Shown here: positions 11,783-64,000 of the stretch, one piece after another
Numbering within the stretch: position 1 is the stretch's first letter
Layout of the letters: each line of letters begins with the position of its first letter
Assembly: GCA_025642075.2 (NCBI GenBank)
Contig: JAODUO010000053.1
Span: forward strand, 1,675,001 to 1,739,000
Reading direction: 5' to 3'
Length of the DNA stretch: 64,000 bases
Source: Ridgeia piscesae
Lineage: Eukaryota > Annelida > Polychaeta > Sabellida > Siboglinidae
Notes under the pieces: model-generated
The model's input: only the letters and a program-made list of their open reading frames with translations
Told to the model about the DNA's origin: nothing
The model's database searches: none
Translations under genes and position numbers: made by a program

Positions 11783-11929
11783 TTTTCAAGCTAAGATTTT
11801 TTAATTTGCACCAAAAACTAGAAATGTACATTGGACTACAGTATGCTTGAAATAAAGTAATTTGGTGGAAGTACTACAAAGACAACATTTTCGAGCTAAA
11901 ACATTAGCTTGTGCATAAAGGCATCTATT

Positions 11930-15777: not shown

Positions 15778-18700
15778 GTAAGTCCACATTCTCCTCAGCA
15801 CTAGCTGCTCACACAGGAAATAAAATATGTACTTTGAAAAGGATGATAAATTTGCATGTTTTAATGGAAGAAGATTGATGGATATTTCCAGGGCATAAAT
15901 AAACAAATAATAAATAAAATAACCATGTTTGTGTGTGTAAAATAAAATTGTTGTCTGTGTTTATTTAATTAGTGTTTTTATGCAGAGTAATTTGGTCATA
16001 TTTTAGCATACCACACAATAAATGGGACTGTCTTAATCACAGAAGTGCAGCTTTAGGATCCATTTAGTTAACCCTAGATGCTTGGATCATGAGTACTCTG
16101 GGGTTTGCGCCCCGGTATTTTTTATATGGGCTTGAGATAGGATTGACATCAAATGGGGAAAATCTCAGATCTTATTTAACAAAGGATTCTGTTTAGTGAT
16201 GAATTCCCTATGAGTTTATTAGCATAATGAAGTGTTCCCCAGAAATGTTAGTCTCATCTGAGAACATGATTCAAATTAGCTACAGTCGGGTACCAAGTAC
16301 CAAGTATTGTTCCTTTTCTACCCAATGACTGTCTTAGTTGATTAGTCCCCTGTATTTTCCAGGAACCTTGGATCATGTGTTTCACAACAGGGTTTTATTC
16401 CTAGTAGTCAGCTCAACATCGATAAATGTGCTTTCTATGTATCTAAACCCAAAATATGGAATCAACTTCCTATCATGATGAAATGAGTGGAGCAGTGAAT
16501 GGTCGATGTTGTTCAATGCTGAAAAATGTAAATGTATACATTACGGATACAACAATAAACAGTATGATTATTTTATGGGAAAGGAATGCATTGAAACAAC
16601 ACACGAGGAGAGAGACTTAGGGGTCATAATCACAGAAACACTGGATGTAACAAAGCAATGTGTCAGGGCAGCTAATAAGGCAAATGCAATGCTAGGCATG
16701 ATAAATAGAGCCTTTAAATATAAAACCAAAGAGGTAGTTTTAAAACTATATAAATCCTTAGTGAGACCTCACCTGGATTACTGTATTCAGGCATGGCGCC
16801 CATTTAAACAGAAAGATACAGATTTATTAGAATCTATACAACGAAGGATGAGCAGGATTATTCCTGAATTAAGGCATTTAGACTATCCAGGTCGACTAAG
16901 AATACTAAAAATAACAACTTTGGAAACAAGAAGGGTGAGAGCCGATTTATTGGAAGTTTTTAAAATAATAAATGGGTTGGATAGTATTTTTCCTGCCGAT
17001 TTCTTTATTATGGAAAATGAGGATGGCAAAACAAGAGGGCACCCTTACAAAATACACAAATTACACTCTAGGCTTGATATACGAAAGTACTCTTTCACTC
17101 AAAGGATAGTAAACGATTGGAATAGACTTCCTGGAAGTGCTGTTATGTCCGCAAGCGTCAACCAATTTAAGGGTCACATTGACAAGTATCTACGAAATAG
17201 GGCGGAGGATTACACGAGTCAGCGATTGACTCCCTTCCTCGTCAACTCCTCGACTACGTAGTAGAAGAGGATTCAAGGTAAATTCAAGGTAAAATCAACA
17301 GCAACTCTAGAACATTTCACATACAAAAAACAAAAATTGCATTTGTTTGAAATCACATTGCCACCCTAAACCACTGACAGTGCCATGCTGTAATGATGAC
17401 TTTTGCCCGGCCCCACCCATGTTTATGTCGAATGATACTTTGTAGTTGCATCACTTGTGCCCCTGAGCTCAGATTCGTGTTTTACAGAGTTGCGTCCGAG
17501 ACGCCACTTCTACATGGGTGGTCAGAGCCTGCCCATCACCATCGAGACAAGTGACCGTGCTTCTCAGCAGCTGTCCAGCCACATCCTTCGTATACTGCTC
17601 ACCGAAGTCCTCGGCTATGAAAAAGTTGAGATCCACAGTGGATACAACTCCATGAATGCAACTGACACTCTGAACCGACTGGCTGGGTGCAGTACTAGGT
17701 CAGTTCTACTCAGTATCATATGAGTCTTTTAAAGGTGACTGTGTAGGCCATAGCTTTATGTAGAGACCCGTCCACTGTAGAGACTGGCTGGGTGCAGTAC
17801 TAGGTCAGTTCTACTCAGTATTCATATGAGTGTTTTAAAGGTGACTGTGTAGGCCATAGCTTTATGTAGAGACCCGTCCACTGTAGAGACTGGCTGGGTG
17901 CAGTACTAGGTCAGTTCTACTCAGTACTCATATGAGTGTCTTAAAGGTGACTGTGTAGGCCATAGCTTTATGTAGAGACCCGTCCACTGTAGAGACTGGC
18001 TGGGTGCAGTACTAGGTCAGTTCTACTCAGTATCATATGAGTGTCTTAAAGGTGACTGTGTAGGCCATAGCTTTATGTAGAGACCCGTCCACTGTAGAGA
18101 CTGGCTGGGTGCAGTACTAGGTCAGTTCTACTCAGTATCATATGAGTCTTTTAAAGGTGACTGTGTAGGCCATAGCTTTATGTAGAGACCCGTCCACTGT
18201 AGAGACTGGCTGGGTGCAGTACTAGGTCAGTTCTACTCAGTATCATATGAGTGTCTTAAAGGTGACTGTGTAGGCCATAGCTTTATGTAGAGACCCGTCC
18301 ACTGTAGAGACTGGCTGGGTGCAGTACTAGGTCAGTTCTACTCAGTATCATATGAGTCTTTTAAAGGTGACTGTGTAGGCCATAGCTTTATGTAGAGACC
18401 CGTCCACTGTAGAGACTGGCTGGGTGCAGTACTAGGTCAGTTCTACTCAGTATCATATGAGTGTCTTAAAGGTGACTGTGTAGGCCATAGCTTTATGTAG
18501 AGACCCGTCCACTGTAGAGACTGGCTGGGTGCAGTACTAGGTCAGTTCTACTCAGTACTCATATGAGTGTCTTAAAGGTGACTGTGTAGGCCATAGCTTT
18601 ATGTAGAGACCCGTCCACTGTAGAGACTGGCTGGGTGCAGTACTAGGTCAGTTCTACTCAGTATCATATGAGTCTTTTAAAGGTGACTGTGTAGGCCATA

Positions 18701-21700
18701 GCTTTATGTAGAGACCCGTCCACTGTAGAGACTGGCTGGGTGCAGTACTAGGTCAGTTCTACTCAGTACTCATATGAGTCTTTTAAAGGTGACTGTGTAG
18801 GCCATAGCTTTATGTAGAGACCCGTCCACTGTAGAGACTGGCTGGGTGCAGTACTAGGTCAGTTCTACTCAGTACTCATATGAGTGTCTTAAAGGTGACT
18901 GTGTAGGCCATAGCTTTATGTAGAGACCCGTCCACTGTAGAGACTGGCTGGGTGCAGTACTAGGTCAGTTCTACTCAGTACTCATATGAGTGTCTTAAAG
19001 GTGACTGTGTAGGCCATAGCTCTATGTAGAGACCCGTCCACTGTAGAGACTGGCTGGGTGCAGTACTAGGTCAGTTCTACTCAGTACTCATATGAGTCTT
19101 TTAAAGGTGACTGTGTAGGCCATAGCTTTATGTAGAGACCCGTCCACTGTAGAGACTGGCTGGGTGCAGTACTAGGTCAGTTCTACTCAGTACTCATATG
19201 AGTGTTTTAAAGGTGACTGTGTAGGCCATAGCTCTATGTAGAGACCCGTCCACTGTAGAGACTGGCTGGGTGCAGTACTAGGTCAGTTCTACTCAGTACT
19301 CATATGAGTGTCTTAAAGGTGACTGTGTAGGCCATAGCTTTATGTAGAGACCCGTCCACTGTAGAGACTGGCTGGGTGCAGTACTAGGTCAGTTCTACTC
19401 AGTATTCATATGAGTGTTTTAAAGGTGACTGTGTAGGCCATAGCTTTATGTAGAGACCCGTCCACTGTAGAGACTGGCTGGGTGCAGTACTAGGTCAGTT
19501 CTACTCAGTATTCATATGAGTGTTTTAAAGGTGACTGTGTAGGCCATAGCTCTATGTAGAGACCCGTCCACTGTAGAGACTGGCTGGGTGCAGTACTAGG
19601 TCAGTTCTACTCAGTATCATATGAGTGTCTTAAAGGTGACTGTGTAGGCCATAGCTTTATGTAGAGACCCGTCCACTGTAGAGACTGGCTGGGTGCAGTA
19701 CTAGGTCAGTTCTACTCAGTATTCATATGAGTGTCTTAAAGGTGACTGTGTAGGCCATAGCTCTATGTAGAGACCCGTCCACTGTAGAGACTGGCTGGGT
19801 GCAGTACTAGGTCAGTTCTACTCAGTACTCATATGAGTGTTTTAAAGGTGACTGTGTAGGCCATAGCTTTATGTAGAGACCCGTCCACTGTAGAGACTGG
19901 CTGGGTGCAGTACTAGGTCAGTTCTACTCAGTATCATATGAGTGTTTTAAAGGTGACTGTGTAGGCCATAGCTTTATGTAGAGACCGTCCACTGTAGAGA
20001 CTGGCTGGGTGCAGTACTAGGTCAGTTCTACTCAGTATCATATGAGTGTTTTAAAGGTGACTGTGTAGGCCATAGCTTTATGTAGAGACCCGTCCACTGT
20101 AGAGACTGGCTGGGTGCAGTACTAGGTCAGTTCTACTCAGTATTCATATGAGTGTTTTAAAGGTGACTGTGTAGGCCATAGCTTTATGTAGAGACCCGTC
20201 CACTGTAGAGACTGGCTGGGTGCAGTACTAGGTCAGTTCTACTCAGTATCATATGAGTGTCTTAAAGGTGACTGTGTAGGCCATAGCTTTATGTAGAGAC
20301 CTGTCCACTGTAGAGACTGGCTGGGTGCAGTACTAGGTCAGTTCTACTCAGTACTCATATGAGTGTCTTAAAGGTGACTGTGTAGGCCATAGCTTTATGT
20401 AGAGACCCGTCCACTGTAGAGACTGGCTGGGTGCAGTACTAGGTCAGTTCTACTCAGTATCATATGAGTGTCTTAAAGGTGACTGTGTAGGCCATAGCTT
20501 TATGTAGAGACCCGTCCACTGTAGAGACTGGCTGGGTGCAGTACTAGGTCAGTTCTACTCAGTATCATATGAGTGTCTTAAAGGTGACTGTGTAGGCCAT
20601 AGCTTTATGTAGAGACCCGTCCACCCATCATTTGGACGGGTAAAAACGAATATGGACGGGTAGAAATATGGTGGACGGGTAAAAAATGAAGGAGCAAAAA
20701 AAAATAGATGTTGTTAGTTATGCCTTGAAAGTGAGTGAAAATGGTGTCACATGTGTGTTTGTAGTCCATTACAGGTCATAGACACATTTAAAAGTTTGTA
20801 AAGTGGCTTAACAGTTAATATCCAAGTGTCCACCAACACATGTGTGACTGGCAATAATTTTATCCTGCATAAAGCCCTGGTGTAGGCCAATAATAAATTA
20901 CACAATCCAACCACTTGCAACATGTATGACAATATCATTGCTATGGTTTTGTTCATGGGAAGCTACGTATGCCAGAAGTTGAAACAGTAATAAATAATTA
21001 TGTTGTTTATGATATGTGTAATAATGGACATTGCTTATGTTTCCACCAAAGCTTTGTTATCCTTTCTAAAAAAATTGAAACTACGTTTTTCACACAACTG
21101 TACTCAAAGTCAGCGGCACAAACATATTTCATCAGCGTACAAGTTATTTTAATATTGAATCATGACAGCAAAATTAATAAATATATCAATAAATACGTTA
21201 ACTTAACCAATAAAAGAACACCTGTATCATTAAACATATTGTTATATGTGGATAAAATTTAAACTCTATCGGTTGTTTATAATTGATTCTCTCTGGTGTG
21301 ATCTCTAATGTTACAGCTGCCACTTGGAGTCAAGACTGGCCGTGCCTCAGACTATGGTGAATCTGGAGGTTTGGATGCACGCTGGCTTCAACCTGGAACC
21401 CTGGCTCAAATACCAGCCCCTGGTAGACTATGGTCCACTCGGACCAACCGGACGGTCAGTGGTCAAGTTGGGCTGGCTGAAGTGTCACTAGAATGTTTTA
21501 TTTCTTCATCTGATGAAGTATTTTAATGTACCCAGTCATTCATACATGCACACACAGTAAAAATGCATGCATGTGCACATGCAGTTACATAATCACACAG
21601 GCAGTTTATGTATTCACACACATACATTCACATACACGCACACACATTCACACACTCAACCACACACACAGTTGACACATGCAGACACACACACACTCAC

Positions 21701-21797
21701 TCAACCACACACACACACGCACACGCACACTAGCACACGCACACACACACTAACACACACACACACACACACACTCACACATTCAACCACACGCACG

Positions 21798-21869
<72 letters not shown>

Positions 21870-24800
21870 GGTTGTTGTTGTAGATGTTGTTGTATGTGTT
21901 GTTGTAGATGTGTTGTTGTTGTTGTTGTAGTAGATGTGTTGTTGTTGTAGTAGATGTGTTGTTGTTGTTGTAGGTTTGGCTGGTTCCTCCCAGTGTTCAC
22001 GGCGGAGAAGAACTGGCTGATGTCCCACTATATAGTGGACAACTGGCGTGCCCTCAAGCTGGACGCAGTGACCGCACAGTTCCAGCTCAATGACAAACAC
22101 GGCCTCATCAAGAACTACCTGACACACCGCGACAAGAGCAGCAACCTCCGCTTCTGTAGCGGCCCCAGCTGCACCAACGGCATCTTCCACGGCCGCCAGT
22201 GTCAACACAACAAGAACAAGTGTGCCCTGCTCCTCACCAGCTACCCGGGTAGGTGTACGTCTACTGCCAGTGACCACAGGGTTAGGTGTGTGGGTGTTTA
22301 CTTACCAGATACCTAGGGGAGTGAATATTTACTAAACATATATTTAGCGGAGTGAATATTTACTAAACAGATACTTAGGGGAGTGAATATTTACTAAACA
22401 GATACTTAGGGGAGTGAATATTTACTAAACAGATACTTACGGGAGTGAATATTTACTAAACAGATACCTAGGGGAGTGAATATTTACTAAACAGATACCT
22501 AGGGGAGTGAATATTTACTAAACAGATACCTAGGGGAGTGAATATTTACTAAACAGATACCTAGGGGAGTGAATATTTACTAAACAATACCTAGGGGAGT
22601 GAATATTTACTAAACATATACTTAGGGGAGTGAATATTTACTAAACAGATACTTACGGGAGTGAATATTTACTGAACAGATACTTAGGGGAGTGAATATT
22701 TACTAAACAGATACTTACGGGAGTGAATATTTACTGAACAGATACTAGGGGAGTGAATATTTACTAAACAGATACATAGGGGAGTGAATATTTACTAAAC
22801 AGATACACAGGGGAGAGTATATTTACTAAACAGATACATAGGGGAGTGAATATTTACTAAACATATACCTAGGGGAGTGAATATTTACTAAACATATACT
22901 TAGGGGAGTGAATATTTACTAAACAGATACTTACGGGAGTGAATATTTACTGAACAGATACTTAGGGGAGTGAATATTTACTAAACAGATACTTACGGGG
23001 AGTGAATATTTACTGAACAGATACCTAGGGGAGTGAATATTTACTAAACAGATACACAGGGGAGTGAATATTTACTAAACAGATACATAGGGGAGAGTAT
23101 ATTTACTAAACAGATACATAGGGGAGTGAATATTTACTAAACAGATACATAGGGGAGTGAATATTTACTAAACAGATACATAGGGGAGTGAATATTTACT
23201 AAACAGATACTTACGGGGAGTGAATATTTACTAAACAGATACCTAGGGGAGTGAATATTTACTAAACAGATACACAGGGGAGTGAATATTTACTAAACAG
23301 ATACATAGGGGAGAGTATATTTACTAAACAGATACATAGGGGAGAGTATATTTACTAAACAGATACACAGGGGAGAGTATACTTACTAAACAGATACATA
23401 GGGGAGAGTATACTTACTAAACAGATACATAGGGGAGAGTATATTTACTAAACAGATACATAGGGGAGTGAATATTTACTAAACATATACCTAGGGGAGT
23501 GAATATTTACTAAACATATACTTAGGGGAGTGAATATTTACTAAACAGATACTTACGGGGAGTGAATATTGACTGAACAGATACTTAGGGGAGTGAATAT
23601 TTACTAAACAGATACTTACGGGGAGTGAATATTTACTGAACAGATACCTAGGGGAGTGAATATTTACTGAACAGATACACAGGGGAGTGAATATTTACTA
23701 AACAGATACATAGGGGAGAGTATATTTACTAAACAGATACATAGGGGAGAGTATATTTACTAAACAGATACACAGGGGAGAGTATACTTACTAAACAGAT
23801 ACATAGGGGAGAGTATATTTACTAAACAGATACATAGGGGAGTGAATATTTACTGAACAGATACTTAGGGGAGTGAATATTTACTAAACATATACTTAGG
23901 GGAGTGAATATTTACTAAACATATACCTAGGGGAGTGAATATTTACTAAACATATACTTAGGGGAGTGAATATTTACTAAACATATACTTAGGGGAGTGA
24001 ATATTTACTAAACAGATACTTAGGGGAGTGAATATTTACTAAACAGATACTTAGGCAGGTGTCTGTTGACCAGATGCTGACCAGATACAGCCAGGCACAG
24101 GTGGTTCGTAGAATACAAACAGAGAAATAATTCTGCTTGAAAGGAGTAGAAGAAAGGTTGATTATGGTGGTTTTTTAATTGCAAGGGTATTTTGGATTGC
24201 TTTGTGAGTCACAAGATGGTGTAGTTTGAGACTTTTTCTGAGTCTCGAGTGAGTTGCTGTTGACTGCTTTTTAGTCTCACGGTGAAGTTTTACAAACATC
24301 AAGGTTTGCCGACGAAGATTTTCAGGTAGAGATGCAGACTAGAAACATTCCCTTCCAGTAGGTTAGTGGTCACTGATTGACCGACTGTGTTGACAGAACT
24401 GGACATGGGAGTGCTACAGAGCCAGGTGAACAGTCTCAGTCTGGATGTGTCTGTGGCGTGGATCGGTCCCCACCTACACAGCTTCGTGCACCAGCGCACA
24501 GTCAACTACCTGCCCACCCTCTTCTTCAACTGGATGCCCAACACACTCACCGCCATGGGCAACTACAGCCGCATCAGCTTCCCCCACTGCAAGGTAGGGA
24601 CACTCTATGGGCAACTACAGCCGCATCAGCTTCCCCCACTGCAAGGTAGGGACACTCTATGGGCAACTACAGCCGCATCAGCTTCCCCCACTGCAAGGTA
24701 GGGACACTCTATGGGCAACTACAGCCGCATCAGCTTCCCCCACTGCAAGGTAGGGACACTCCATGGGCAACTATAGCCGCATCAGCTTCCCCCACTGCAA

Positions 24801-27800
24801 GGTAGGGACACTCTATGGGCAACTACAGCCGCATCAGCTTCCCCCACTGCAAGGTAGGGACACTCTATGGGCAACTACAGCCGCATCAGCTTCCCCCACT
24901 GCAAGGTAGGGACACTCTATGGGCAACTACAGCCGCATCAGCTTCCCCCACTGCAAGGTAGGGACACTCTATGGGCAACTACAGCCGCATCAGCTTCCCC
25001 CACTGCAAGGTAGGGACACTCTATGGGCAACTACAGCCGCATCAGCTTCCCCCACTGCAAGGTAGGGACACTCCATGGGCAACTATAGCCGCATCAGCTT
25101 CCCCCACTGCAAGGTAGGGACACTCTATGGGCAACTACAGCCGCATCAGCTTCCCCCACTGCAAGGTAGGGACACTCTATGGGCAACTACAGCCGCATCA
25201 GCTTCCCCCACTGCAAGGTAGGGACACTCTATGGGCAACTACAGCCGCATCAGCTTCCCCCACTGCAAGGTAGGGACACTCTATGGGCAACTACAGCCGC
25301 ATCAGCTTCCCCCACTGCAAGGTAGGGACACTCCATGGGCAACTAAGCCGCATGCCCCACTATAGGGACACTCAGGCTGTTCCCCCACTGCAAGGTAGGG
25401 ACACTCTATGGGCAACTACAGCCGCATCAGCTTCCCCCACTGCAAGGTAGGGACACTCTATGGGCAACTACAGCCACATCAGCTTCCCCCACTGCAAGGT
25501 AGGGACACTCCATGGGCAACTACAGCCGCATCAGCTTCCCCCACTGCAAGGTAGGGACACTCTATGGGCAACTACAGCCGCATCAGCTTCCCCCACTGCA
25601 AGGTAGGGACACTATGGGCAACTTCGATTGAGCTACTCGAGTTACTCGGGTAACCCCAACGTGGTATCCGGTTTATGATAATTTACACTGCGCGCGCAGT
25701 ACCATGCGCGTAATCCAACTGAACAGCGATGATCATGATCACGGACATAAACGCCTTATGTGGATAAATAAAATAAAGTAATCAGTTGTTTAGTGTATAA
25801 ATTGTGACGTTCATCTTATTGGTCTTAAATTATAATTCATAGAATGTGGTGACATTAATCCAGATTAATTTTTTTAAATGATTGTGTCATGTAATGTTTA
25901 ATTAATTTCTTGTGCAGTAGGGGCCTATGTTCCCTTTTGGCTATCACTGCTAATGACGTCAGTTATGCGAGTGAACTCATGATTGCCTCGAGTAGCGGCC
26001 TTGAAGATTCACCTTGCTAATCTATGTCAAAAATGGTCACGCGCTCTAGTGATCTCGGCTTAGCTCAATCGAAGTCGGCCTATGTGGGCATGGGTGGGGC
26101 TACACAGCCATTTTGCTGTCTCACCACAGGAGTTTGGATCATTAGATGGACTTAACAGAACTGAACAGAAGCCTGGATGTAATTTACCGTGGTGGAGATA
26201 TCGGTCTTTGTTATTTCTAATTTTGCAAACAACAATTACTGCCATTTTGGAATTGTAAATGATATGATTTTGAATTGTAAAATTAGTAAAAACCGACTGT
26301 TGTCATCTGTCTTTCTTTATCACCTAATCACTCATCCTGCCACTGTTTAGTTGTCATCAAAATAAGTTAAGATAAGGTTAATATGCCTAAGCTAATGGAG
26401 CTTGCAATGTCATTTAAAATAGTTGATCACCTCATTGCCAGGTCATTATGAATACTTCAATTGTGTTCTTCCCCCCAAGGTTGTTGACGAACGACCACAG
26501 AACTGTGACTTTGAGGTGAGTCAGCTGATGAAGGTCATGTGGACGAAGATCCGCACGCACGCACCTGAGGCATATCACGTGATCAGTCACATGACCTTCA
26601 CGCAGGACCAGTACGAGGACCTGCTGCGTCTATACGTCGGTGTGAACCCGCAGTACGCGAACTCTGACCTCAAATTGGAGGAGGCAGCCTGCAAGTGGGT
26701 GCGTCACCATGGCAACGTGTGGCACCAGTGGATGCCAAAGAATCTGCTTACAAAGAAACGCATCTACCTGGGCGGAATGTTCCCCCTGCGCGGACCCTAC
26801 TGGCGCCAACCTGGCATCGTCCCAGGTATGTCACACCTATATGCTCAAGAATCCAAGCGCAGAGTAGCGACATAAACAATCATTAGGCATAATCACAAAT
26901 GGGGACAGGAATGAGTTGTCATTGGAGCGAGAGACCGCCAAAAGTTTAGGGTGGGATAGCAGTTACAAACAAATATGTGGTGAGTTTTTTCAAACGTTGG
27001 CTATAATTTCTGACGATATCATAGTGATAAAAACTTGATTCCAGATCTTTGGCACAGTTATAGAAAAAACATGTATGCTAGTATTGGGTTTAGTTTTAGG
27101 GACAAAGTGTTAGCAAATGGATGAACTATTTGTACATCTTAAACTGCACTTAATGATTTTGTATATCATGCCTTCTCAGTATCGTGAATGGACATGTGTT
27201 CGCATAGGAATCGGTTGGGATGTTCCCAAATGAGACGCCACTCAAGGGAATTCGACATACTGAAATGTGCCATTTAAAATGCATTCATTGGTTACAAATG
27301 ATTTGTTGATCTACATAATACCTTCAATATATAATATGGCACCATATTCTTGTTTTTTATACAAAAATGTCTATTAATGAATTAAGTGAATCAGAAACAA
27401 AACCAAATATGGTTGTTCAAGAATTTCTGCCCCCTTTTAAAAATACGTATTTTACCAATACTTTAGTAAAATAATGGTGTCATCATAAACGCTTTTTCAT
27501 TACAATACAATACAATACAGTAACCTTTAATGATCCCAAAAGGGAAATTCACATGGTAGACATTCACATAACACAACAATATTCGGTTTTTTTTACAAAA
27601 TAATCTTAATAATAGTAGTAGTGGTCATTTCTCCATTGTATCCCTCCCTCCCTCCCTCCCTCCCTCCCTCCCTCCCTCCCTCCCTCCCTCCCTCCCTCCC
27701 CCTCCCTCCCCCTCCCTCCCTCCCTCCCTCCCTCCCTCCTCCTCCCTCCCTTCCCTCCCTCCCCGATTTCGTGTTGAGCCTGATTGAAGTTGGAAGTAAA

Positions 27801-30130: not shown

Positions 30131-30181
<51 letters not shown>

Positions 30182-43715: not shown

Positions 43716-43778
<63 letters not shown>

Positions 43779-48150: not shown

Positions 48151-48318
48151 TTGAAGACACATAACCAATGCTAAGTCCAGAAGACACATAACCAATGCTA
48201 AGTCCAGAAGACACATAACTAATGCTAAGTCCAGAAGACACATAACTAATGCTAAGTCCAGAAGACACATAACTAATGCTAAGTCCAGAAGACACATAAC
48301 CAGTGCTAAGTCCATGTG
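48150..48318. repeat. 27-bp minisatellite, 6 copies
   Basis: Unit aagacacataaccaatgcta agtccag. Confidence 0.95.
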
Positions 48319-49910: not shown

Positions 49911-50064
49911 GAACTAGTATTATTATTTAAAAAAATTGTCAAGCTCGATTACACATAGCCCTTAGCAATCTCTAGTAAGAATATCGTTATTGTGGTCTGG
50001 CTGAAGGACATTGGCGATCAAACGATTGTGGCACCGTCTACCGGGTGAGTACACAAATACAACT

Positions 50065-50073
50065 GGCGGGAAA
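50065..50073 (+). promoter_or_regulatory. Possible E2F-type site upstream of the PARP gene
   Basis: ggcgggaaa fits the E2F consensus and lies about 90 bp before the ATG, a plausible position for a DNA-repair gene promoter. A single short match can be chance. Confidence 0.3.
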
Positions 50074-50164
50074 TGTTGGTTGTGATGCGTTTATTTACAA
50101 CCCACTTGCCTCTGTTTATGTCAGGAATCCTTCGTTTTTAAACTGTGATCCAGTCCCTTGTAAA

Positions 50165-50189
50165 ATGCCTCCAAAGAAGCGAAATGCAG
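50165..50189 (+). CDS. PARP2: PARP2-like exon 1 (25 nt)
   Basis: Encodes MPPKKRNA plus one base. Donor GCAG|GTAAAA. Phase 1 joins exactly to exon 2 (G+GA), producing a lysine-rich N-terminus typical of PARP2/3. Too short for ORF finders, so chosen on phase, start context (taaaATGCC) and basic content. Intron 1 is about 5.25 kb. Confidence 0.65.
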
Positions 50190-53100: not shown

Positions 53101-56100
53101 ATCTTCACATGAATAAATATACACAATCTTGAAAAATCTGTCAGCTATCCGATGGTACCAAATGTGCGCCACAGGTCAGTTATAGATTACACAATCTAAA
53201 AATGTTTTTCATGCAGGAAAGAGTCTCGGGCCAATTAATCGGCCATGGCTGGTCGCAGGTCACATATAACCCTGATAACATATCAAAAAGTTAACCCTGC
53301 TTATGCAGAGTTTACTGTTTGGGCTCTGCCTATAAGGTCAACAATGAAAACATATTGTTAGCTTGTTTAGTTGCTGATACCAGACTGATAGAATTAGAGG
53401 TCACTTTGTGTATTCCAGTTGCAATCAGGAGTTTGTCCTAAATTCATAATGTCTTGTAGATATCACACAAAAATTATGTCTACACTCCAAGGGTTTTATG
53501 TAACAGCACAACTTTATGTAGAGACCCGTCCACCTGTCATTTGGACGGGTAAAAATGAATATGGACGGGTAGAAATATGGTGGACGGGTGGTGGATGGGT
53601 AAAAAAATGAAGGAGCAAAAAAAGGTCTCCCAAAACCATAGATATTGTTAGTTATGCCTTGAAAGTGAGTGTAAATGGTGTCACATGTGTGTTTGTAGTC
53701 CATTTCATGTCACCAGAGACACATTTAAAAGTTTGTAAACTGGCTTAACAGTTGACACCCATGTGTCCACCAAAACATGTGTGACTGGCAATAATTTTAT
53801 CCTGCATAAACAGGAACCGTCAGTCAGTTTGTGTAGCACCGAGGTCCTTGACATGAAATACTATAATATGCCAGTCTTAAATTAATTAAAAGTGTGCCTT
53901 TATGTGAATGGTATTATTTGCCATTTTTCCGGAGTGTTATTTGACTCATTTATTAGAATAATAGTTGATCCGTCGTTTGATTCGTTTAAACCCTACATGT
54001 GCCAGTGTATGGAACTGAGTGGGTTGTTGGCTTGTTAGCCCCCCCAAAAAAACCACTAGTCATTTGATCTCTCAGTTGTAATTACACTACCCGGTAGTCT
54101 GTTCCTACCCTGGCCAGCCTCCTGCCCATCTTGAAGACCTGTAGACAGGTATGTGGAACAAAACTTCTGGTGGCGCCATCTAGAAAAGTTATTTGTGTCA
54201 CATACACATGACTGTCAGTTGAGGACAAGGGTGTCAAGTGGCAGTACATCCCTTTTCCCCACAGAGCATGTTCCGGTCTTGTTGACATGGTTGGCCATAT
54301 AGCAGTCGTAAACATTGATGATGTTCTTTTGTTCATCAATCCAAAAAGAACCATACTTTTGATTTGCATCTGCCATCACGAAAATTAAACAGTCTGTCCC
54401 AGGCCACAGTGCTGGTCCCTGCTGGAGATTGTTCAGATAGATAACGCGGTGAGCTGGTGACAGAGCATAATTAACAACAACAAAAGCGAACAGCATTGAC
54501 AAATCATAGGATTGCAATTTTGTATTTATTGGATTTTATATACGTTGCATTACAGGTTGTATTTCAAAATCTTTTTAACAATTTCACAATAGGGATTTTA
54601 ATGGGCCAGTCAGCAATCAGGTCTGTAGACCTGGGGTTATTAGGGGCCCAACAGTGAATCTTGGGGGCAGTGGATCCCCACTAAACTCGAACCCGGGGAT
54701 GAGTTGTCTTCCTACACTTAACGGGATACCCCAGTTAGTGAGAGATTCACAGCATTTACTTACATCTGTATAATATATTGGTTGTGCATAATAATTGTGC
54801 ACAAAGATCGTTAATAAACAATTGATTATAGTATAATTGTATCAGAAAGACTCCATGTTGGATTCAGGGCGCTGCCATCTTGAGACTTATGCGCCAGTGA
54901 TGTAAACCGCTTACGTCACTGGCGCATGCACGTTCGAACATCCTACGTTTGTCCAATGGTACTTGATGTATCCAGTACGTTGCGGATTGCTTACGTCACA
55001 ATCACAATTATTAGCGAAGATTCCGCCAATCATTGTCTTTTTCAACAATGCGCCAGTGACGTAAACAATTTGGCTTACGTCACTGGCGCATAAGTCTCAA
55101 GAAGGCAGCGCCCTGAATCTGTTTTTTATACCACTAAACTATAACTAATTGTTTATTAACGATCTTTGGGCAAAATTACTTGGCACAACCAATATGGTAT
55201 ACAAATGTAAGTTAATACTGTGAACCTCTCACTGACTGGAGTATCCCTTTAAATGTAAATTTGTAATCTGAGGTGATTTTTCCATAGACATCCGAATGAA
55301 TGTATTTGCCATGGAGTAAGCATAAGGTACTCAAAGCAATCCTTGCCTTTGGTGATATGTTGCAGGTTGTTAGAACTTACTGAAACACATTTTCACATGG
55401 ATGACTGGGTGTTACTCATTATTATTGCTGTGATTGCCCACAGGAGCTGCCTCTGGGGCATCAGCCAAGAAGGCACGGGTAAGTGTCGAGCCTCCCTGCT
55501 TGGACCATCTTGTCGTCCAGTGGGAGTATGAGGAACGCAAGGGTCAGTGGGTCATCTTTGCCTCGAATCATGGTGACATCTTGACCACAGCATTCACTGC
55601 TGGAGATACGGAGGTAAGTACACATTTAGAAATATAACTGGAGTGTGATACTGGACTATTGACCACCTAACTCGCATAGAAAATTGTTGGCATCAAGCCA
55701 ACAGAAATAGATGTTGAACATATGAGAATGGCCAGACAGTCTATCTACCCCTCCCCATATTGTGATGAAACTCTGGCTTATAGTCCATCGTAGTCATTAG
55801 ATGTATTTTAGATGGAATTAACACAGTTGCCAAGGTTATAACAAACAAATTCTTCCTTTACACTTGCCGAAGGACTATTGGATGTTTCTGTTTGTCTTTC
55901 TTTATTAACTCATGCCTTGGTAGTGCAATGACTGCACAGTGCAGTATACACCGTCTAAGTCATTACAGTATATTTTAGTTGCATATATTTTTGGCGAGGC
56001 AGTTAAATATGGCAGTGATGCGCATAGTTGAGATGTGAGGAACTAAACGTGATTTGACCAAATACACACACATCATTTACAAACTGCTTCTGGAATATCA

Positions 56101-59100
56101 CTTGCAAGTACAAATTTCAAAAATCAGACATTTTAAGATTGATTTAAATGCACCTTTGACCTTAAACTTTGATGTTTATATAACTAACATATCTAGAAAC
56201 CAGATTACTGCCAATACACTAGTGATGATAGAACACTGGCATAATTTTGCAGGAGGTGCTGGACATTAATGACCGTGTCTCGGTGAAGGTGAACTTTGAG
56301 AAGATGACTCAGAAGAACACAAAGACCGGCTGGGAGAAGAGGCTGAGATGTGCTGTCAAGGGGGACAAGGACACAAATGGTTCGCAATCAGATAATACAG
56401 TCTAGTACACACGTTTCAGTCATTAGATGATACAATCTAATACACATGTTTCAGTCATTAGATGATAGTCTAGTACACATGTTTCAGTCATTAGATGATA
56501 CAATCTAATACACATGTTTCAGTCATTAGATGATACAGTCTAGTACACATGTTTCAGTCATTAGATGATACAGTCTAGTACACATGTTTCAGTCATTAGA
56601 TGATACAGTCTAGTACACATGTTTCAGTCATTAGATGATACAATCTAATACACATGTTTCAGTCATTAGATGATACAATCTAATACACATGTTTCAGTCA
56701 TTATATGATACAGTCTAGTACACATTTTTTCAGTCAGATGATACAGTCTAGTACACACTTTTCAGCTGTTAGATGATACACTATGGTACACATGTTTCAG
56801 TCATTATGGATGACACAGTCTAGTATACGTTTTAGTCATTCATTCAGCTGAACAATCAAACAAATTTTCAGTCTTCTTTTGTAGTCAAAGTACAATGTTT
56901 AAGTCATTCTGATACAGTAAAGTACACATGTTTCAGTCATTAGGTGATACAGTCAAGTACACACATTTCAGTCATTGGGTGATGCAGTCAAGTACACATT
57001 TTTCAGTCATTGGGTGATACAGTCAAGTACACATTTTTCAGTCATTAGGTGATACAGTCAAGTACACATTTTTCAGTCATTAGGTGATACAGTCAAGTAC
57101 ACATTTTTCAGTCATTAGGTGATACAGTCAAGTACACATTTTTCAGTCATTGGGTGATACAGTCAAGTACACATTTTTCAGTCATTGGGTGATACAGTCA
57201 AGTACACATTTTTCAGTCATTAGGTGATACAGTCAAGTACACACATTTCAGTCATTAGGTGATACAGTCAAGTACACATTTTTCAGTCATTGGGTGATAC
57301 AGTCAAGTACACATTTTTCAGTCATTGGGTGATATAGTCAAGTACACATTTTTCAGTCATTAGGTGATACAGTCAAGTACACATTTTTCAGTCATTAGGT
57401 GATACAGTCAAGTACACATTTTTCAGTCATTGGGTGATGCAGTCAAGTACACATTTTTCAGTCATTGGGTGATACAGTCAAGTACACATTTTTCAGTCAT
57501 TGGGTGATGCAGTCAAGTACACATTTTTCAGTCATTGGGTGATGCAGTCAAGTACACATTTTTCAGTCATTAGGTGATACAGTCAAGTACACATTTTTCA
57601 GTCATTGGGTGATGCAGTCAAGTACACATTTTTCAGTCGTTGGGTGATGCAATCAAGTACACATTTTTCAGTCATTGGGTGATGCAGTCAAGTACACATT
57701 TTTCAGTCATTGGGTGATACAGTCAAGTACACATTTTTCAGTCATTATGTGATACAGTCAAGTACACATTTTTCAGTCATTGGGTAATACAGTCAAGTAC
57801 ACATTTTTCAGTCATTAGGTGATACAGTCAAGTACATATTTTTCAGTCATTGGGTGATACAGTCAAGTACACATTTTTTCAGTCAGATGGTACACTCTAG
57901 TACACACATTTCAGCTGTTAGATGATACACTATGGTACACATGTTTCAGTCATTATGGATGACACAGTCTAGTACACGTTTTAGTCATTCATTTCTTACT
58001 GCTGCAACAATACAAACAAATTATGTCGGTAGTCTTCGTTTTTGTAGTTCTAATCGTAATATTTTAGCTTCAAGTTGGCGTGAATATTTATAGTAAATTG
58101 TACAAAAAATATGTTTGTGTTATATTTAATTATGTTGTTTTTGATCGTAAATATTTGTCATTCTGTTTTTTAAATTGGCGAAATATATTAAAAATACACA
58201 CACCTTCCAAATTTCTTGTGCGAATGTGATATCGCAATGGGGGCGATTTTCAGACACAATTATTCAACTGAAGTTTTCCTCTTTTGTTGTATTTGTTTTT
58301 GTCACTTTTTAGCTCAACTAAATTTTTACACATGCGTCTACAGATTCATGTAACAGAATCAATGAAGGTGATCAACTGTTCAAATAAAGCCACAAAACAA
58401 TAATAAAATATCAACACCGTTCAGTAGTTGGTGTAACTAACGTAACACATATTTATAAAACCTCCGTGGATAAACTGCCAGCAGACCTTTATGAGGAGAT
58501 CGTCCGTTATGTGTTGGCCCACCTGGAACGTGTGAGAACTTGGGTTTGCAGACTACCAAATATGGCAGTGGGAAGATGAGCAGGGTGAGTGGAGCGCCTA
58601 CTCCGCCCATGTCTCCGTCAGACTCCAGCGTGGTCTCATGGACAAGTCCCCTGCTGTCTCCATCAAGGTCCGTGACGCTGAGTACACAGTGAGTCTTGGC
58701 TTGAAACCATGGCAACAAACAAATGAAGAAACCGGATTTTCACGGAATGTCACGCAGGTCAAATCAGGTAGTTAACACAAAGAATTCTTGAAATTGTTAT
58801 TACCCGGTAGTTGAATTATGACTTATTTCATTTTTTCATATTATATAGTTTGTGAAGATTACATATTGACCGTTTTTACTGTCAAGTTTTGAGAGTGTTA
58901 TTATTGTATTTTCATGAGTATAACCGCCGTCTAACATGGAAATGTAATTGTGTTACATAATATTTTAAATAGCATGGGTTATTTAATGGAAAGTACCATT
59001 TAATAGTTATTAATAGCTTTGAACATCACTCCATTTTAACTTCTAACAGTTGTGATTCAGGTTAGGGTGAATTTTAGGAAGACATTTTTTAAGGAAATGT

Positions 59101-61646
59101 TATGTTTACCAGTCTCGAAACATTCAGATACTCATAAATGTACATTATGATATGTGTATACAATAACATACGCAGTCACAAGTTAATAATAAACATATGA
59201 ATTACAGTGACGTTCAATCATCAGTCTTAGTCTCACAAATCAAATTACCACCTGTACAAAATGAACTCAGAGTCTCAGACCATAATAAAAACAGGCGTAC
59301 GGGTCTCTGGGCAGATGGAAATGTGGACCTTGCGTGAATCGGCTGCTAAACAACATCAACTTGTTCGTGGCTGAGGTGATTCTGTTAAATGCAGTCCACT
59401 GTATTTTGAGGAAACACCAGCCATTTCACTCACATCTCAGATGCAGTTGCTGCACCCGTGTCTGCGCCATCAGCCAGCGCTACCATGGTTACGGCCAATG
59501 GGAGCAAGGTGAAGGCCAATGGGAGCAAGGTGAAGGCCAGTGGAGAAGGTGTCAAGGTCACAAATGGCCGTGCTGCAGGGGCAAGTGGCAGCAGGAACAA
59601 GTCGGCGGCTGTGAAAGATGAGAGAGGCAAATCAGGTGAGTGTAACAAGTATGAAAAGGTTTTGTGCATTGTCTATAGGTAGTTTATAATGATGAGTCAT
59701 AGTAAAACTGCTGAACTGCGATGAACTAATTTTAGTGTGTATATTAGTTTATGCCATTAATAAGGCCAAACGTCATAACAAACATTTAGAATACGGGCAC
59801 ATGCATCAATAAATATGCCACATTTTGTTGTGAGTTTTGGTGAACATGACGGACAGAATATTCTTGTGTTAAATTAATAGATATATATTTATTCACTTTG
59901 TTATAGTGAGGACTGTGGTCTTGAAAGGCAAGGCACCCGTTGATCCTGAATGCACCGCCAAACTCAAAGTAGCACACGTCTACTATGAGGGGAATGACGT
60001 CTATGACGTCATGCTAAACCAGGTATTTCATTGTTGCCATTTCAGCATAATGGTGTGGTATATAATGTATATGTAATAGACAATTCCGCTGGTTTCTGTT
60101 TCCCAGTTAAATACAACTTCAGACACCCGTTACTACATATTATTCCCGTACTACACACAATGTCAGACTTGTTTAGTAGGTCTTTCAAATGTCCCAGACA
60201 ACTTTTGGTTCCAGATTGTGATATGTATGATGTATCTACATTGTACATATATAATGTGACATTTGTGACATCTGCAGAGTTCATGGCCCATTGACTGTAT
60301 ATCAGATTCTCTTAAATAATTCTTATAAATTATAATTATAAATTGTAATGATTACTATGCTCATAATGAACCAATTTTTAAGAGACTTTACCTCTGAAAG
60401 CTTGAAGACATATACAGTTAAGCAACTCAAATTTATTTATAAATTTTATAAATTGATCAGCAGGCAGATGCCTAGATATTTCAATCAAAACCTACTTGTA
60501 TTAAATACCCAGCCCCATCAACATCCTACTAGAGCACGTACAAATGGTTTTCTAAATTACAATTCGCCAGAATAAACATTAGGTTCAGCATAGCAAAGTC
60601 ATTCAAACATTCTCTCGATGCATTATTTATGAAATATTCACACATACAAAGCCATGGATTTTCCACCTACCCGTTATATCAAAATACATTATTTAAAACT
60701 ACTACGAACGTGTATGACTATCTGACATCTGACAGCGATGGATATTTATGTACAAATACTCACATTAATTGATACATGGTTCAATGCTTAAAGCCTCGCA
60801 GAGAAATCTACATGGTGTTTGAATGAACCGGTCTCTGGGAAGTAAAATATAAAATGAATTGAGCTGTCCTGGGCACTGGGGACTGAAATAAAACTGAAAT
60901 GCATATTTATCTGGTGGTTTGCAGACAAACTTGAGTAACAACAACAACAAGTATTACCTAATCCAACTGCTGGAGGACGACCAGCGACGTCAGTACAGTG
61001 TGTGGCTGAGGTGGGGGCGTGTGGGGGCCAAGGGACAGAACAACCTTGTTGCCTGCGGCCCAGACCTGGATGAAGCTAAAGAGATCTTCACCAAGAAGTG
61101 TGTACTGACATTGTCTCTCAAGTCGCTACAATGTTCTAATTGTGATGCTGACGATTTTATACTGTTTAGATATTAATCAGGAAGGAATTAACTTACTTAC
61201 TTCGGAGCGTAGTATTTGAAACGTAGATTTTGACCCATCATCTGTGCTTATTCTGTGGGTCTTGGTCACATGCTGGTGTCATTAAGTATGGCTCAGGTTT
61301 AGACATTATTGATGATAAATGTAGCAGTATTGAGGCTGTTTTGTAGGAATTTCATATTTATGTATAAAACTTGTCAGTGATATACATTTATTTCTCAGAC
61401 GATTTATAAAATGTTCCCAACAAGTCATAATGCAGACAACTTATATTTTCACAGCCGTCTGGGAAAAATAAAACTTGCAATTTTTTACAAATCATACAAA
61501 AAATAGTTTTATCATATCAATGTTTGTCATGCACTAAAACTGTATTTAGATTTTCTGACAAGACGAAAAACGACTGGGCATCCCGAAGGAATTTTGAGAA
61601 AATCCCTGGAAAGTATGACATGGTCAAACTGGACTATACAACAGAG
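50165..61646 (+). CDS. PARP2: PARP2-like poly(ADP-ribose) polymerase with two N-terminal WWE domains (5' part)
   Basis: Joined exons: 50165-50189, 55444-55613, 56253-56379, 58552-58767, 59441-59635, 59907-60022, 60925-61097, 61550-61646. All phases agree, giving 373 codons up to a phase-0 donor; the gene continues past the window. Order: MPPKKRNA-type basic N-terminus (likely nuclear signal, with SAKKAR nearby), WWE domain 1 (~25-105), WWE domain 2 (~109-178), Ala/Gly/Ser/Lys linker (~180-245), WGR domain (~262-365). WGR motifs: YYEGNDVYDVMLNQTNL, YYLIQLLEDD, VWLRWGRVG, KNDWASRRNFEKIPGKYDM, closely like PARP2. PARP2-type enzymes bind DNA breaks through WGR and attach ADP-ribose to nuclear proteins; WWE domains generally bind ADP-ribose chains. 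Vertebrate PARP2 lacks WWE. The catalytic domain is not visible, so PARP2 against PARP3 subtype rests on WGR only. Confidence 0.88.
50440..51335 (+). pseudogene. LINE (jockey/CR1-like) RT fragment in PARP intron 1
   Basis: Begins at the catalytic box FADDCLLVLYQPI (about 50452), then NDLIKLEEWQNTWLMKFNPT, KCFTMTLASRK, HCYLGVQISNTLNW, TLVRPILEYASASWDPHCLK and, after frame shifts, FFPTTIKEWNSLPPKHCLK. Multiple stops show it is dead. Its inverted relative is at 49340-49910, so the two flank PARP exon 1. Confidence 0.9.
51432..51990. mobile_element. Possible MITE with imperfect inverted ends
   Basis: The left end (ccattcacactagcaaa...cgaaaccgg...gcgttcacactacaaaa) pairs loosely with the reverse complement of the right end (ccatttcaccctacaaacag...cgaaccgg...gtgttcacactatagaa). 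No coding content and no clear target duplication. Includes a cttatatagcgcagt word near 51740. Confidence 0.4.
51991..53511. other. PARP intron 1, unannotated stretch
   Basis: Moderately GC-rich near 52600-52960. Two minus-strand frames (52478-52687 and 52689-52967) show no family I recognise and are not called. Confidence 0.4.
53512..53810 (+). mobile_element. Interspersed element copy 2 (~299 bp)
   Basis: Second copy of the element at 20600-20879, same strand, with a 20-bp insert (aaaggtctcccaaaaccata) and ~85-90% identity by eye. Starts ctttatgtagagacccgtcc and ends ctgcataaa. It is single and not tandemly expanded. Confidence 0.8.
53811..54721. other. PARP intron 1, unannotated stretch
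   Basis: Minus-strand frames 54082-54369 and 54215-54517 look protein-like in composition but match no family I recognise. An old pseudogene or transposon piece is possible. Confidence 0.35.
54722..55248. mobile_element. MITE with ~250-bp inverted repeats and TTAA target sites (piggyBac-like)
   Basis: 527 bp, almost a complete palindrome. Ends: cgggataccccagttagtga on the left and, reversed, agggatactccagtcagtga on the right, each next to TTAA (54718-54721 and 55249-55252), the hallmark target of piggyBac-type elements. Inner arms pair over gatcgttaataaacaatt and cagggcgctgcc. Carries several gccagtgacgtaa / ttacgtcactggc words. No transposase. Confidence 0.8.
55444..55613 (+). CDS. PARP2: PARP2-like exon 2: WWE domain 1, first half
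   Basis: Residues ~9-65. Acceptor gattgcccacag, donor GAG|GTAAGT, phase 1 in, 0 out. VQWEYEERKGQWVIFASNHG is the WWE start (W-x-x-E...G-x-W). FTAGDTE ends the exon. Confidence 0.9.
55614..56252. other. PARP2-like intron 2
   Basis: No feature recognised. Confidence 0.4.
56253..56379 (+). CDS. PARP2: PARP2-like exon 3: WWE domain 1, second half
   Basis: Residues ~66-108. VLDINDRVSVKVNFEKMTQK, NTKTGWEKRLRC. The donor AATG|GTTCGC is weak but is the one that gives phase 1 into exon 4. The tandem array begins about 5 bp after it. Confidence 0.85.
56385..57992. repeat. ~35-bp minisatellite after the exon 3 donor, ~43 copies
   Basis: Unit words: cagtcattaggtgatacagt and caagtacacattttt. Two subfamilies: a left block with gatacaatctaatacacatg, and a homogeneous right block from ~56930. 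A shared broken motif (cagctgttagatgatacact, tatggtacacatg) closes both blocks at ~56760 and ~57915, pointing to a large block duplication. Confidence 0.95.
57993..58551. other. PARP2-like intron 3, right part
   Basis: AT-rich, nothing recognised; ends tgggtttgcag. Confidence 0.4.
58552..58767 (+). CDS. PARP2: PARP2-like exon 4: WWE domain 2
   Basis: Residues ~108-179, phase 1 to 1 (TCAG|GTAGTT). WQWEDEQGEWSAYSAHVSVR, AEYTVSLGLKPWQQ and TNEETGFSRNV follow the WWE consensus (W-x-W-E-D...G-x-W, then Y-x-V-x-x, then Q-x-N-x-x-T-G). Confidence 0.92.
58768..59440. other. PARP2-like intron 4
   Basis: AT-rich, nothing recognised. Confidence 0.4.
59441..59635 (+). CDS. PARP2: PARP2-like exon 5: low-complexity linker
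   Basis: Residues ~180-244. Acceptor cacatctcag, donor TCAG|GTGAGT, phase 1 to 1. Contains a short internal repeat encoding ANGSKVK twice, plus basic Ser/Lys residues, probably disordered and nuclear. Confidence 0.88.
59907..60022 (+). CDS. PARP2: PARP2-like exon 6: start of WGR
   Basis: Residues ~245-283, phase 1 in, 0 out (CAG|GTATTT). LKGKAPVDPECTAKLKVAHV, YYEGNDVYDVMLNQ. The D-P-E-C and V-Y-D-V-x-L-N-Q motifs are PARP2/3 hallmarks. Confidence 0.94.
60023..60924. other. PARP2-like intron 6 with a possible LINE relic
   Basis: About 60360-60770 (+) encodes pieces such as IYKFYKLISRQMPRYFNQ and RINIRFSIAKSFKHSLDALF that resemble degenerate LINE C-termini. Stops interrupt it and the assignment is weak. 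Confidence 0.35.
60925..61097 (+). CDS. PARP2: PARP2-like exon 7: WGR core
   Basis: Residues ~284-340. Acceptor gtttgcag, donor AAGAA|GTGTGT, phase 0 in, 2 out. TNLSNNNNKYYLIQLLEDDQ, YSVWLRWGRVGAKGQ and DEAKEIFTKK are the WGR core motifs. Confidence 0.95.
61098..61549. other. PARP2-like intron 7
   Basis: No feature recognised. Confidence 0.4.
61550..61646 (+). CDS. PARP2: PARP2-like exon 8: end of WGR
   Basis: Residues ~341-373. Acceptor ctgtatttag, donor GAG|GTGAGT, phase 2 in, 0 out. FSDKTKNDWASRRNFEKIPG, KYDMVKLDYTTE. The next exon should start the PARP regulatory domain. Confidence 0.94.
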
Positions 61647-61671
61647 GTGAGTTGGTGGTCAGTTGTGGCCC

Positions 61672-64000
61672 AGTAGCTGGAATGGCCTCTTCTACCTGGT
61701 GTCTGTGTCAAGCAGTTGGCCTCTTCTACCTGGTGTCTGTGTCAAGTAGTTGGCCTCTTCTACCTGGTGTCTGTGTCAAGTAGTTGGCCTCTTCTACCTG
61801 GTGTCTGTGTCAAGTAGTTGGCCTCTTCTACCTGGTGTCTGTGTCAAGCAGTTGGCCTCTTCTACCTGGTGTCTGTGTCAAGTAGTTGGCCTCTTCTACC
61901 TGGTGTCTGTGTCAAGCAGTTGGCCTCTTCTACCTGGTGTCTGTGTCAAGCAGTTGGCCTCTTCTACCTGGTGTCTGTGTCAAGCAGTTGGCCTCTTCTA
62001 CCTGGTGTCTGTGTCAAGTAGTTGGCCTCTTCTACCTGGTGTCTGTGTCAAGCAGTTGGCCTCTTCTACCTGGTGTCTGTGTCAAGTAGTTGGCCTCTTC
62101 TACCTGGTGTCTGTGTCAAGTAGTTGGCCTCTTCTACCTGGTGTCTGTGTCAAGCAGTTGGCCTCTTCTACCTGGTGTCTGTGTCAAGTAGTTGGCCTCT
62201 TCTACCTGGTGTCTGTGTCAAGTAGTTGGCCTCTTCTACCTGGTGTCTGTGTCAAGAGTTGGCCTCTTCTACCTGGTGTCTGTGTCAAGTGTTGGCCTCT
62301 TCTACCTGGTGTCTGTGTCAAGGTTGGCCTCTTCTACCTGGTGTCTGTGTCAAGCAGTTGGCCTCTTCTACCTGGTGTCTGTGTCAAGTAGTTGGCCTCT
62401 TCTACCTGGTGTCTGTGTCAAGTAGTTGGCCTCTTCTACCTGGTGTCTGTGTCAAGTAGTTGGCCTCTTCTACCTGGTGTCTGTGTCAAGAGTTGGCCTC
62501 TTCTACCTGGTGTCTGTGTCAACTGTCAAGCAGTTGGCCTCTTCTACCTGGTGTCTGTGTCAAGCAGTTGGCCTCTTCTACCTGGTGTCTGTGTCAAGCA
62601 GTTGGCCTCTTCTACCTGGTGTCTGTGTCAAGCAGTTGGCCTCTTCTACCTGGTGTCTGTGTCAAGTAGTTGGCCTCTTCTACCTGGTGTCATGTGTCAA
62701 GCAGTTGCCCTCTTCTACCTGGTGTCTGTGTCAAGCAGTTGGCCTCTTCTACCTGGTGTCTGTGTCAAGTGGTTGGCCTCTTCTACCTGGTGTCTGTGTC
62801 AAGTAGTTGGCCTCTTCTACCTGGTGTCTGTGTCAAGTAGTTGGCCTCTTCTACCTGGTGTCTGTGTCAAGTAGTTGGCCTCTTCTACCTGGTGTCTGTG
62901 TCAAGTGGTTGGCCTCTTCTACCTGGTGTCTGTGTCAAGCAGTTGGCCTCTTCTACCTGGTGTCTGTGTCAAGCAGTTGGCCTCTTCTACCTGGTGTCTG
63001 TGTCAAGTAGTTGGCCTCTTCTACCTGGTGTCTGTGTCAAGCGGTTGGCATCTTTCTACCTGGTGTCTGTGTCAAGTTTGGCCTCTCTACCTGGTGTCTG
63101 TGTCAAGTAGTTGGCCTCTTCTACCTGGTGTCTGTGTCAAGTAGTTGGCCTCTTCTACCTGGTGTCTGTGTCAAGTAGTTGGCCTCTTCTACCTGGTGTC
63201 TGTGTCAAGTAGTTGGCCTCTTCTACCTGGTGTCTGTGTCAAGTAGTTGGCCTCTTCTACCTGGTGTCTGTGTCAAGTAGTTGGCCTCTTCTACCTGGTG
63301 TCTGTGTCAAGTAGTTGGCCTCTTCTACCTGGTGTCTGTGTCAAGTAGTTGGCCTCTTCTACCTGGTGTCTGTGTCAAGTAGTTGGCCTCTTCTACCTGG
63401 TGTCTGTGTCAAGTCAAGCAGTTGGCCTCTTCTACCTGGTGTCTGTGTCAAGCAGTTGGCCTCTTCTACCTGGTGTCTGTGTCAAGCAGTTGGCCTCTTC
63501 TACCTGGTGTCTGTGTCAAGCAGTTGCCCTCTTCTACCTGGTGTCTGTGTCAAGTAGTTGGCCTCTTCTACCTGGTGTCTGTGTCAAGTGGTTGGCCTCT
63601 TCTACCTGGTGTCTGTGTCAAGTAGTTGGCCTCTTCTACCTGGTGTCTGTGTCAAGTAGTTGGCCTCTTCTACCTGTGTCTGTGTCAAGTGGCCTCTCTA
63701 CCTGGTGTCTGTGTCAAGTAGTTGGCCTCTTCTACCTGGTGTCTGTGTCAAGTAATTGGCCTCATCTACCTGGTGTCTGTGTCAAGTAGTTGGCCTCTTC
63801 TACCTGGTGTCTGTGTCAAGTAGTTGGCCTCATCTACCTGGTGTCTGTGTCAAGTAGTTGGCCTCTTCTACCTGGTGTCTGTGTCAAGTAGTTGGCCTCT
63901 TCTACCTGGTGTCTGTGTCAAGTAGTTGGCCTCTTCTACCTGGTGTCTGTGTCAAGTAGTTGGCCTCTTCTACCTGGTGTCTGTGTCAAGAGTTGGCCTC
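61672..64000. repeat. 34-bp minisatellite after the exon 8 donor, ~68 copies, runs off the window
   Basis: Unit: agttggcctcttctacctgg tgtctgtgtcaag. The founder-like gtagctggaatggcctcttc starts about 25 bp after the donor GAG|GTGAGT. Short-indel units near 62260-62330, 63040-63090 and 63670-63700. Frames through it are artefacts. Confidence 0.97.

Follow-up and report, generated by a model that had tools for sequence, protein, structure and literature searches.

Minisatellite arrays at splice junctions in three genes of the tubeworm Ridgeia piscesae

Why should minisatellites built from different units lie again and again at the edges of introns? The question is raised by a 64,000-nucleotide stretch of the Ridgeia piscesae genome (hereafter the window; positions 1,675,001 to 1,739,000 of contig JAODUO010000053.1, assembly GCA_025642075.2), in which a first-pass annotation had noticed tandem arrays at the 5' splice sites of two genes, one for a Venus kinase receptor (VKR) and one for a PARP2-like protein. 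The window is taken from contig C53 of a 628-Mb assembly of 4875 contigs; an excerpt on the published R. piscesae assembly gives 574.96 Mb and a contig N50 of 10.42 kb (PMC9921365). Using gene models built independently of that annotation, we found that the arrays share a junction-bound anatomy, recur in three genes, are biased towards splice junctions, use junctions of both types and appear to be of different ages. With moderate confidence, we read them as splice-junction minisatellites like the 'mirages' of amphioxus, in which border DNA would have been duplicated head to tail and the array would then have grown into the intron.

The two genes and the arrays within them are as follows (window coordinates).

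15678..45185, forward strand: complete VKR gene, 20 exons, 19 introns, 1337 aa; one open frame from ATG to stop, with GT-AG introns
55444..61646, forward strand: PARP2-like gene, exons 2-8, from protein matches; runs past the right window edge
17677..20624, forward strand: VKR intron 2 array, 106-bp unit x 28; spans donor 17698|17699 with 22 nt of exon per unit, GT intact in 28/28
22297..24055, forward strand: VKR intron 4 array, 31-bp unit x 57; starts 48 bp past donor 22248|22249, no exon sequence seen in the unit
24555..25623, forward strand: VKR intron 5 array, 52-bp unit x about 21; spans donor 24593|24594 with 39 nt of exon, GT intact in 20/21
28430..29710, forward strand: VKR intron 7 array, 49-bp unit x 26; spans donor 28459|28460 with 30 nt of exon, GT intact in 26/26
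34072..34783, forward strand: VKR intron 10 array, 37-bp unit x 19; spans donor 34095|34096 with 24 nt of exon, GT intact in 19/19
35904..37759, forward strand: VKR intron 12 array, 43-bp unit x 42; a diverged first copy plus the array at 35957-37759
40339..41744, forward strand: VKR intron 15 array, 48-bp unit x 29; stops 5 bp short of the exon 16 3' splice site (41750)
56395..57989, forward strand: PARP2 intron 3 array, 35-bp unit x 46; starts 15 bp past donor 56379|56380, no exon sequence seen in the unit
61683..64000, forward strand: PARP2 intron 8 array (P8a), 34-bp unit; starts 36 bp past donor 61646|61647 and continues to 66587, 144 copies

Tandem Repeats Finder (TRF) recovered all eight arrays that had been named, with the intron 7 array ending at 29703, an end moved by eye to 29710. 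Counted from the first intron base, the arrays start at -22 (VKR intron 2), -39 (intron 5), -30 (intron 7), -24 (intron 10), +27 (intron 12) and +48 (intron 4), and at +15 and +36 in PARP2 introns 3 and 8, so that the three arrays placed shortly past donors do lie there. The proposed composition of the unit, exon end followed by donor and intron, is borne out exactly in four introns, with 22 nt of exon and 84 nt of intron in intron 2, 39 and 13 in intron 5, 30 and 19 in intron 7, and 24 and 13 in intron 10. The fifth VKR donor array claimed, in intron 12 (about 26 and 17 nt in diverged form), holds through its diverged first copy: 35904-35949 covers donor 35929|35930 and aligns with a score of 24 that none of 8088 background windows equalled, while the unit consensus has lost the donor.

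Alignment of the units to the adjacent exon ends divided the arrays. The array's own exon end was recovered in interior copies of intron 2 (1 of 7751 background windows as good, the denominator for all such counts below unless stated), introns 5, 7 and 10 (0 each) and intron 12 (3), but not in VKR intron 4 (2257), PARP2 intron 3 (5873) or PARP2 intron 8 (4187); interior copies of the intron 15 array likewise held no exon start. Degenerate first copies, that is, leftward extensions of the repeat, were considered for VKR intron 4 and PARP2 intron 3 and set aside as weak: with the first unit, 158 and 140 of 6725 background windows were as good, and with the consensus 203 and 308; none was found for PARP2 intron 8. 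An earlier shuffle test of the first two had looked stronger (0/300 for both), and strict leftward extension from TRF edges says little in most cases, since those edges are where TRF itself had stopped extending. A small exon at 24055, which would close the intron 4 array and make it acceptor-founded, was rejected because the Lamellibrachia satsuma protein joins exon 4 (end 22248) straight to exon 5.

Is this placement more than chance? Under a null in which each array is dropped anywhere in its own intron, seven of nine window arrays lie near a donor (start within 50 bp of it, or spanning it) against 1.36 expected (P=1.8e-5), while one of nine is near an acceptor (expected 1.36); by TRF coordinates the donor is spanned in 4/9 (expected 0.64, P=0.0019). 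P8a was left out of this test because it runs off the window. The first-pass annotation was therefore right that chance is a poor account of arrays at the left edges of these introns. A stricter null, in which one founder unit is dropped into the array-free intron, gave the same direction for the nine: eight near either junction (expected 2.74, P=1.5e-4) and four spanning one (expected 1.28, P=0.023).

Outside the window, twenty systematic 10-kb samples (200 kb) contained 17 arrays amounting to 13.4 kb. Two of these, both long, belong to a FRAS1-like gene and stop at 3' splice sites; the DNA neighbouring FRAS1 and that to the right of the window were then examined. All five counted FRAS1 arrays (FA to FE) lie on or against 3' splice sites. 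In FA and FD the unit is similar to roughly the first 23-25 nt of the exon (14 and 7 background windows as good), and FE (68-bp unit x 6.6), found in DNA examined after the pattern had been noticed, carries 46 nt of exon start exactly. PARP2 contributes both ends: intron 10 has a 25-bp array spanning the donor with 13 nt of exon (3 background windows as good), and intron 8 (6384 bp) consists almost wholly of three different minisatellites, one 36 bp past the donor, one in the middle and one at the acceptor (P8c, 24-bp unit). By end, the junction arrays of VKR are six at donors and one at an acceptor, those of FRAS1 none and five (Fisher P=0.015, for a contrast chosen after seeing the data), and those of PARP2, outside that test, three and one. 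Since the FRAS1 arrays and P8c sit at 3' sites, the rule is 'splice junction' and not '5' splice site'; the claim that the position is peculiar to donors falls, and the suggested comparison of array starts with donors, made here on a small sample, upholds a junction excess recurring in a further gene but not one specific to donors.

For the combined count we took arrays of period at least 15 and length at least 150 bp in introns with exon models, 18 in three genes, including two misses (VKR intron 7, 30886-31123, and the middle array of PARP2 intron 8). Left uncounted were two arrays of an F-box/SPRY gene whose second exon was placed by eye (locus L027, 7445-8565, mid-intron, and 9342-9654, 83 bp before an acceptor); an array in PARP2 intron 12 that begins at 73597, some 460 bp past the donor, and continues beyond the locus; an array of 141 bp ahead of PARP2 exon 11; and microsatellites, short arrays and arrays without a gene model, among them most of the 17 in the 200-kb sample and four further arrays beyond the FRAS1 gene (L033). 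Under the founder null, 3.50 of the 18 would be expected to cover a splice site; TRF coordinates place 11 over one (P=5.2e-5). For arrays within 50 bp of a site the count is 16, against 8.18 expected (P=2.5e-5). Outside the window, seven of eight cover a splice site, six of these being 3' sites (expected 1.97, P=1.9e-4).

Several results weigh against reading the arrays as founded at junctions. The test draws on three genes only, two of which came with the finding. Outside the window, nearness alone (7/8, expected 4.79) is not significant (P=0.087), and the support there hangs partly on FB and FC, which abut acceptors, reach 2-4 nt past them by TRF and have interior copies without exon sequence. 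When these two are removed, 9/18 arrays cover a splice site (P=0.0022), and 5/8 outside the window (P=0.020); when FD and P8c, with TRF overlaps of 4 and 8 nt, are removed as well, the latter falls to 3/8 (P=0.31), although FD units nonetheless resemble 23 nt of exon. P8c covers the acceptor and 8 nt of exon without reaching significance (1243 background windows as good). Scoring three left-out arrays as misses gives 16/21 near (P=0.0018) and 11/21 covering (P=0.00045). Exon sequence in interior copies stands out in 8 of 15 arrays tested, plus FE; two of the 18 lie far from every junction, the 200-kb sample also contains arrays without any known junction, and six folded stretches gave no consistent excess of DNA structure (z -1.80 to 1.48).

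These weaknesses leave some room for neutral founding anywhere in introns, the clustering then being due to chance or to the choice of a striking window. Because array-free introns are short, 45% of founders (8.18/18) would land within 50 bp of a junction anyway, and the weak values outside the window point the same way. The in-window excess, the covering excess over all 18 arrays, which persists without FB and FC, and the exact exon sequence inside units argue against it, and we judge this explanation quite unlikely.

The closest known counterpart of junction founding is found in amphioxus, where mirages occur in Adh3, troponin C, the globins BflGb6 and BflGb9, and PGBD5, with units of 10-160 bp (PMC3087553, PMC3902484). 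According to passages of these sources, mirages are, like the tubeworm arrays, tandem copies of an exon-intron border that resemble minisatellites, found at 5' and 3' boundaries alike and with AG/GT signals in the copies; their units are tens of bp long, as are those of the 18 counted arrays (20-106 bp). They differ in belonging to a cephalochordate and not an annelid, and in having 2-7 copies in the globin and PGBD5 examples, against about 6.5 to 144 in the tubeworm. The tubeworm unit spans the boundary at the donors of VKR introns 2, 5, 7, 10 and 12 and PARP2 intron 10, and at the acceptors of FA, FD and FE (by 8 nt only in P8c), but not in VKR introns 4 and 15, PARP2 intron 3, P8a, FB or FC; both boundary types are used, and splice signals are present in the copies of the four exact donor arrays but lost from the intron 12 unit. 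In earthworm metallothionein genes, another annelid case of minisatellite arrays within an intron (intron 1), exon 4 duplications are missing from the transcript, and the available passages of the source do not describe border-spanning units (PMC12783039). Among the matches listed from open-licence literature (titles, abstract starts and passages), we found no description of junction-spanning minisatellites in an annelid.

What happens to the copies once an array exists? Across the 94 copies of the four exact donor arrays, 93 keep an intact GT and 91 an intact donor hexamer, and the junction reads AG|GT in all four arrays. These features suit a rival in which duplications arise everywhere and those at junctions are retained or spread, their copied splice signals being harmless or helpful; in one variant, AG|GT units could serve as donor and acceptor at once, and a mis-splice at a later copy could be removed by re-splicing. 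Such dual-specific sites are described for polyubiquitin in a passage of PMC10809524, where AG|GT likewise occurs in tandem, but the UBC repeats code for ubiquitin monomers whereas the tubeworm copies are intronic and their splice use is putative. Donor-core columns, however, are not significantly less variable than the others (1/36 versus 19/207, P=0.17), so selection on inner donors is not shown; the donor is lost from the intron 12 unit, AG|GT occurs among acceptor-side units in FC only, and the scarcity of plain mid-intron arrays is left unexplained. Retention in place of founding therefore seems to us unlikely.

Tandem arrays are error-prone in assemblies, and an artefact must be weighed too. 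The copies vary, with mean identities of inner copies to consensus of 92-99% across ten aligned arrays, and the first copy, identical to the consensus in intron 5, differs from it in introns 7 and 10 and is diverged in intron 12. This argues against misassembly, which we consider very improbable. Given first copies that match in intron 5 and not in introns 7 and 10, array ages may differ. The units had also been called unrelated, each array arising on its own; separate origin at the borders stands, with one doubtful exception, a 39-column similar stretch around the donor in the intron 7 and intron 10 units (28430-29710 and 34072-34783; 32/20000 shuffles with the donor octamer fixed were as good), which may be chance because 45 unit pairs were compared and this one scored best.

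Could the arrays instead be the introns themselves, made by duplication of a proto-splice site? This model is in print, in the passages available (PMC3087553, PMC2891723), and shares with our arrays the tandem duplication of a sequence containing AG|GY. It makes the intron the size of the duplicated segment, however, whereas the tubeworm arrays stand at one end of introns of ordinary size (median 543 bp for 8 introns with the arrays subtracted, versus 639 bp for 17). No intron is a whole number of units, and no counted array (18 in all) comes within 50 bp of its intron's two splice sites at once: in the 16 junction cases the other splice site is 93-5820 bp from the array, and the remaining two touch neither. 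We regard this origin as very improbable.

If the arrays are splice-junction minisatellites, a short genomic stretch straddling or beside an exon-intron border would have been duplicated head to tail, and slippage or unequal exchange would then have extended the array into the intron; the copy next to the exon would stay the working splice site, presumably the only one used, and the remaining copies would turn into intron. The units hold both exon and intron, and the template was therefore genomic DNA or unspliced RNA, not mature mRNA. Arrays may have been founded when DNA was copied at junctions during repair or replication and the copying switched template, an event that transcription or splicing at the junction probably favours. 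Template switching during copying agrees with one further feature of VKR.

41419..41545, forward strand: 127-bp copy of the exon 16 end, its donor and 41 nt of intron 16, within the intron 15 array; 124/127 identical to its source at 41785-41911

This captured fragment lies 366 bp upstream of its source. A link between array founding and transcription or splicing is possible, and within our proposal it may underlie the junction preference. R-loops, suggested earlier among the candidate processes, are disfavoured as a common cause because GC skews are mixed across the five spanning donor units (0.18, -0.20, -0.08, 0.16 and -0.65), without a consistently G-rich non-template strand.

A broader extension, which we put forward tentatively and think rather doubtful, is that junctions are general founding sites of minisatellites in lineages as far apart as annelid tubeworms and amphioxus, with a process coupled to transcription or splicing recurrently copying DNA around spliceosome-bound junctions, also to new places such as that of the exon 16 fragment, and with the end preferred in each gene perhaps set by the direction of replication relative to transcription. 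If the bias is genome-wide, splice junctions would be hot spots of mutation by tandem duplication in animal groups that are far apart. This would tie DNA instability to splicing and explain growth in intron length, and an unexplained oddity of amphioxus would become testable in public tubeworm genomes and RNA.

The exon models behind these positions agree with proteins of a related tubeworm. VKR is closest to L. satsuma LSAT2_023695 (1124/1291 aligned residues identical), the next named matches being from Capitella teleta and Paralvinella; all 19 VKR junctions align to the L. satsuma protein without insertion, and the single 25-aa gap in that protein falls inside exon 8. The R. piscesae PARP2 protein NP493_53g17011 is 100% identical across 73% of the PARP query, matching exons 4 (in part) to 12, and exons 2-3 match the L. 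satsuma PARP2 protein. In these three database proteins (not RNA), namely PARP2 of R. piscesae and both VKR and PARP2 of L. satsuma, exon follows exon with no repeat sequence between. VKR and PARP2 share one L. satsuma contig (220,867 bp). For the FRAS1-like gene, the best matches cover 62% of the query at 44 and 46% identity.

Other repeats were seen in and around these genes. A 4.7-kb array of a 60-bp unit (78 copies; window 7089-11783) lies upstream of VKR exon 1, where there is no known exon, and its consensus holds ATGGTAAGT, a strong donor motif. At locus L010 (9191-10000), an uncounted 55-bp array without a gene model starts 16 bp past a CAG|GTAAGT motif. The intron part of the VKR intron 2 unit (17754-17775) has 22 nt in common with 53512-53533, beside a TGGACGGGTAAAAA repeat (within 53512-53589) that is also found after the intron 2 array (20633-20685). 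PARP2 exon 5 contains a 21-bp coding repeat of 2.9 copies (59493-59551). Open frames at 12439-12970, 16482-17258 and 50423-50953 look by eye like pieces of retroelement reverse transcriptase; Pfam, searched with 16482-17258 alone, returned no family for it. A dispersed repeat lies at 30000-30400, with at least 82 matches in the genome (query 30000-30600).

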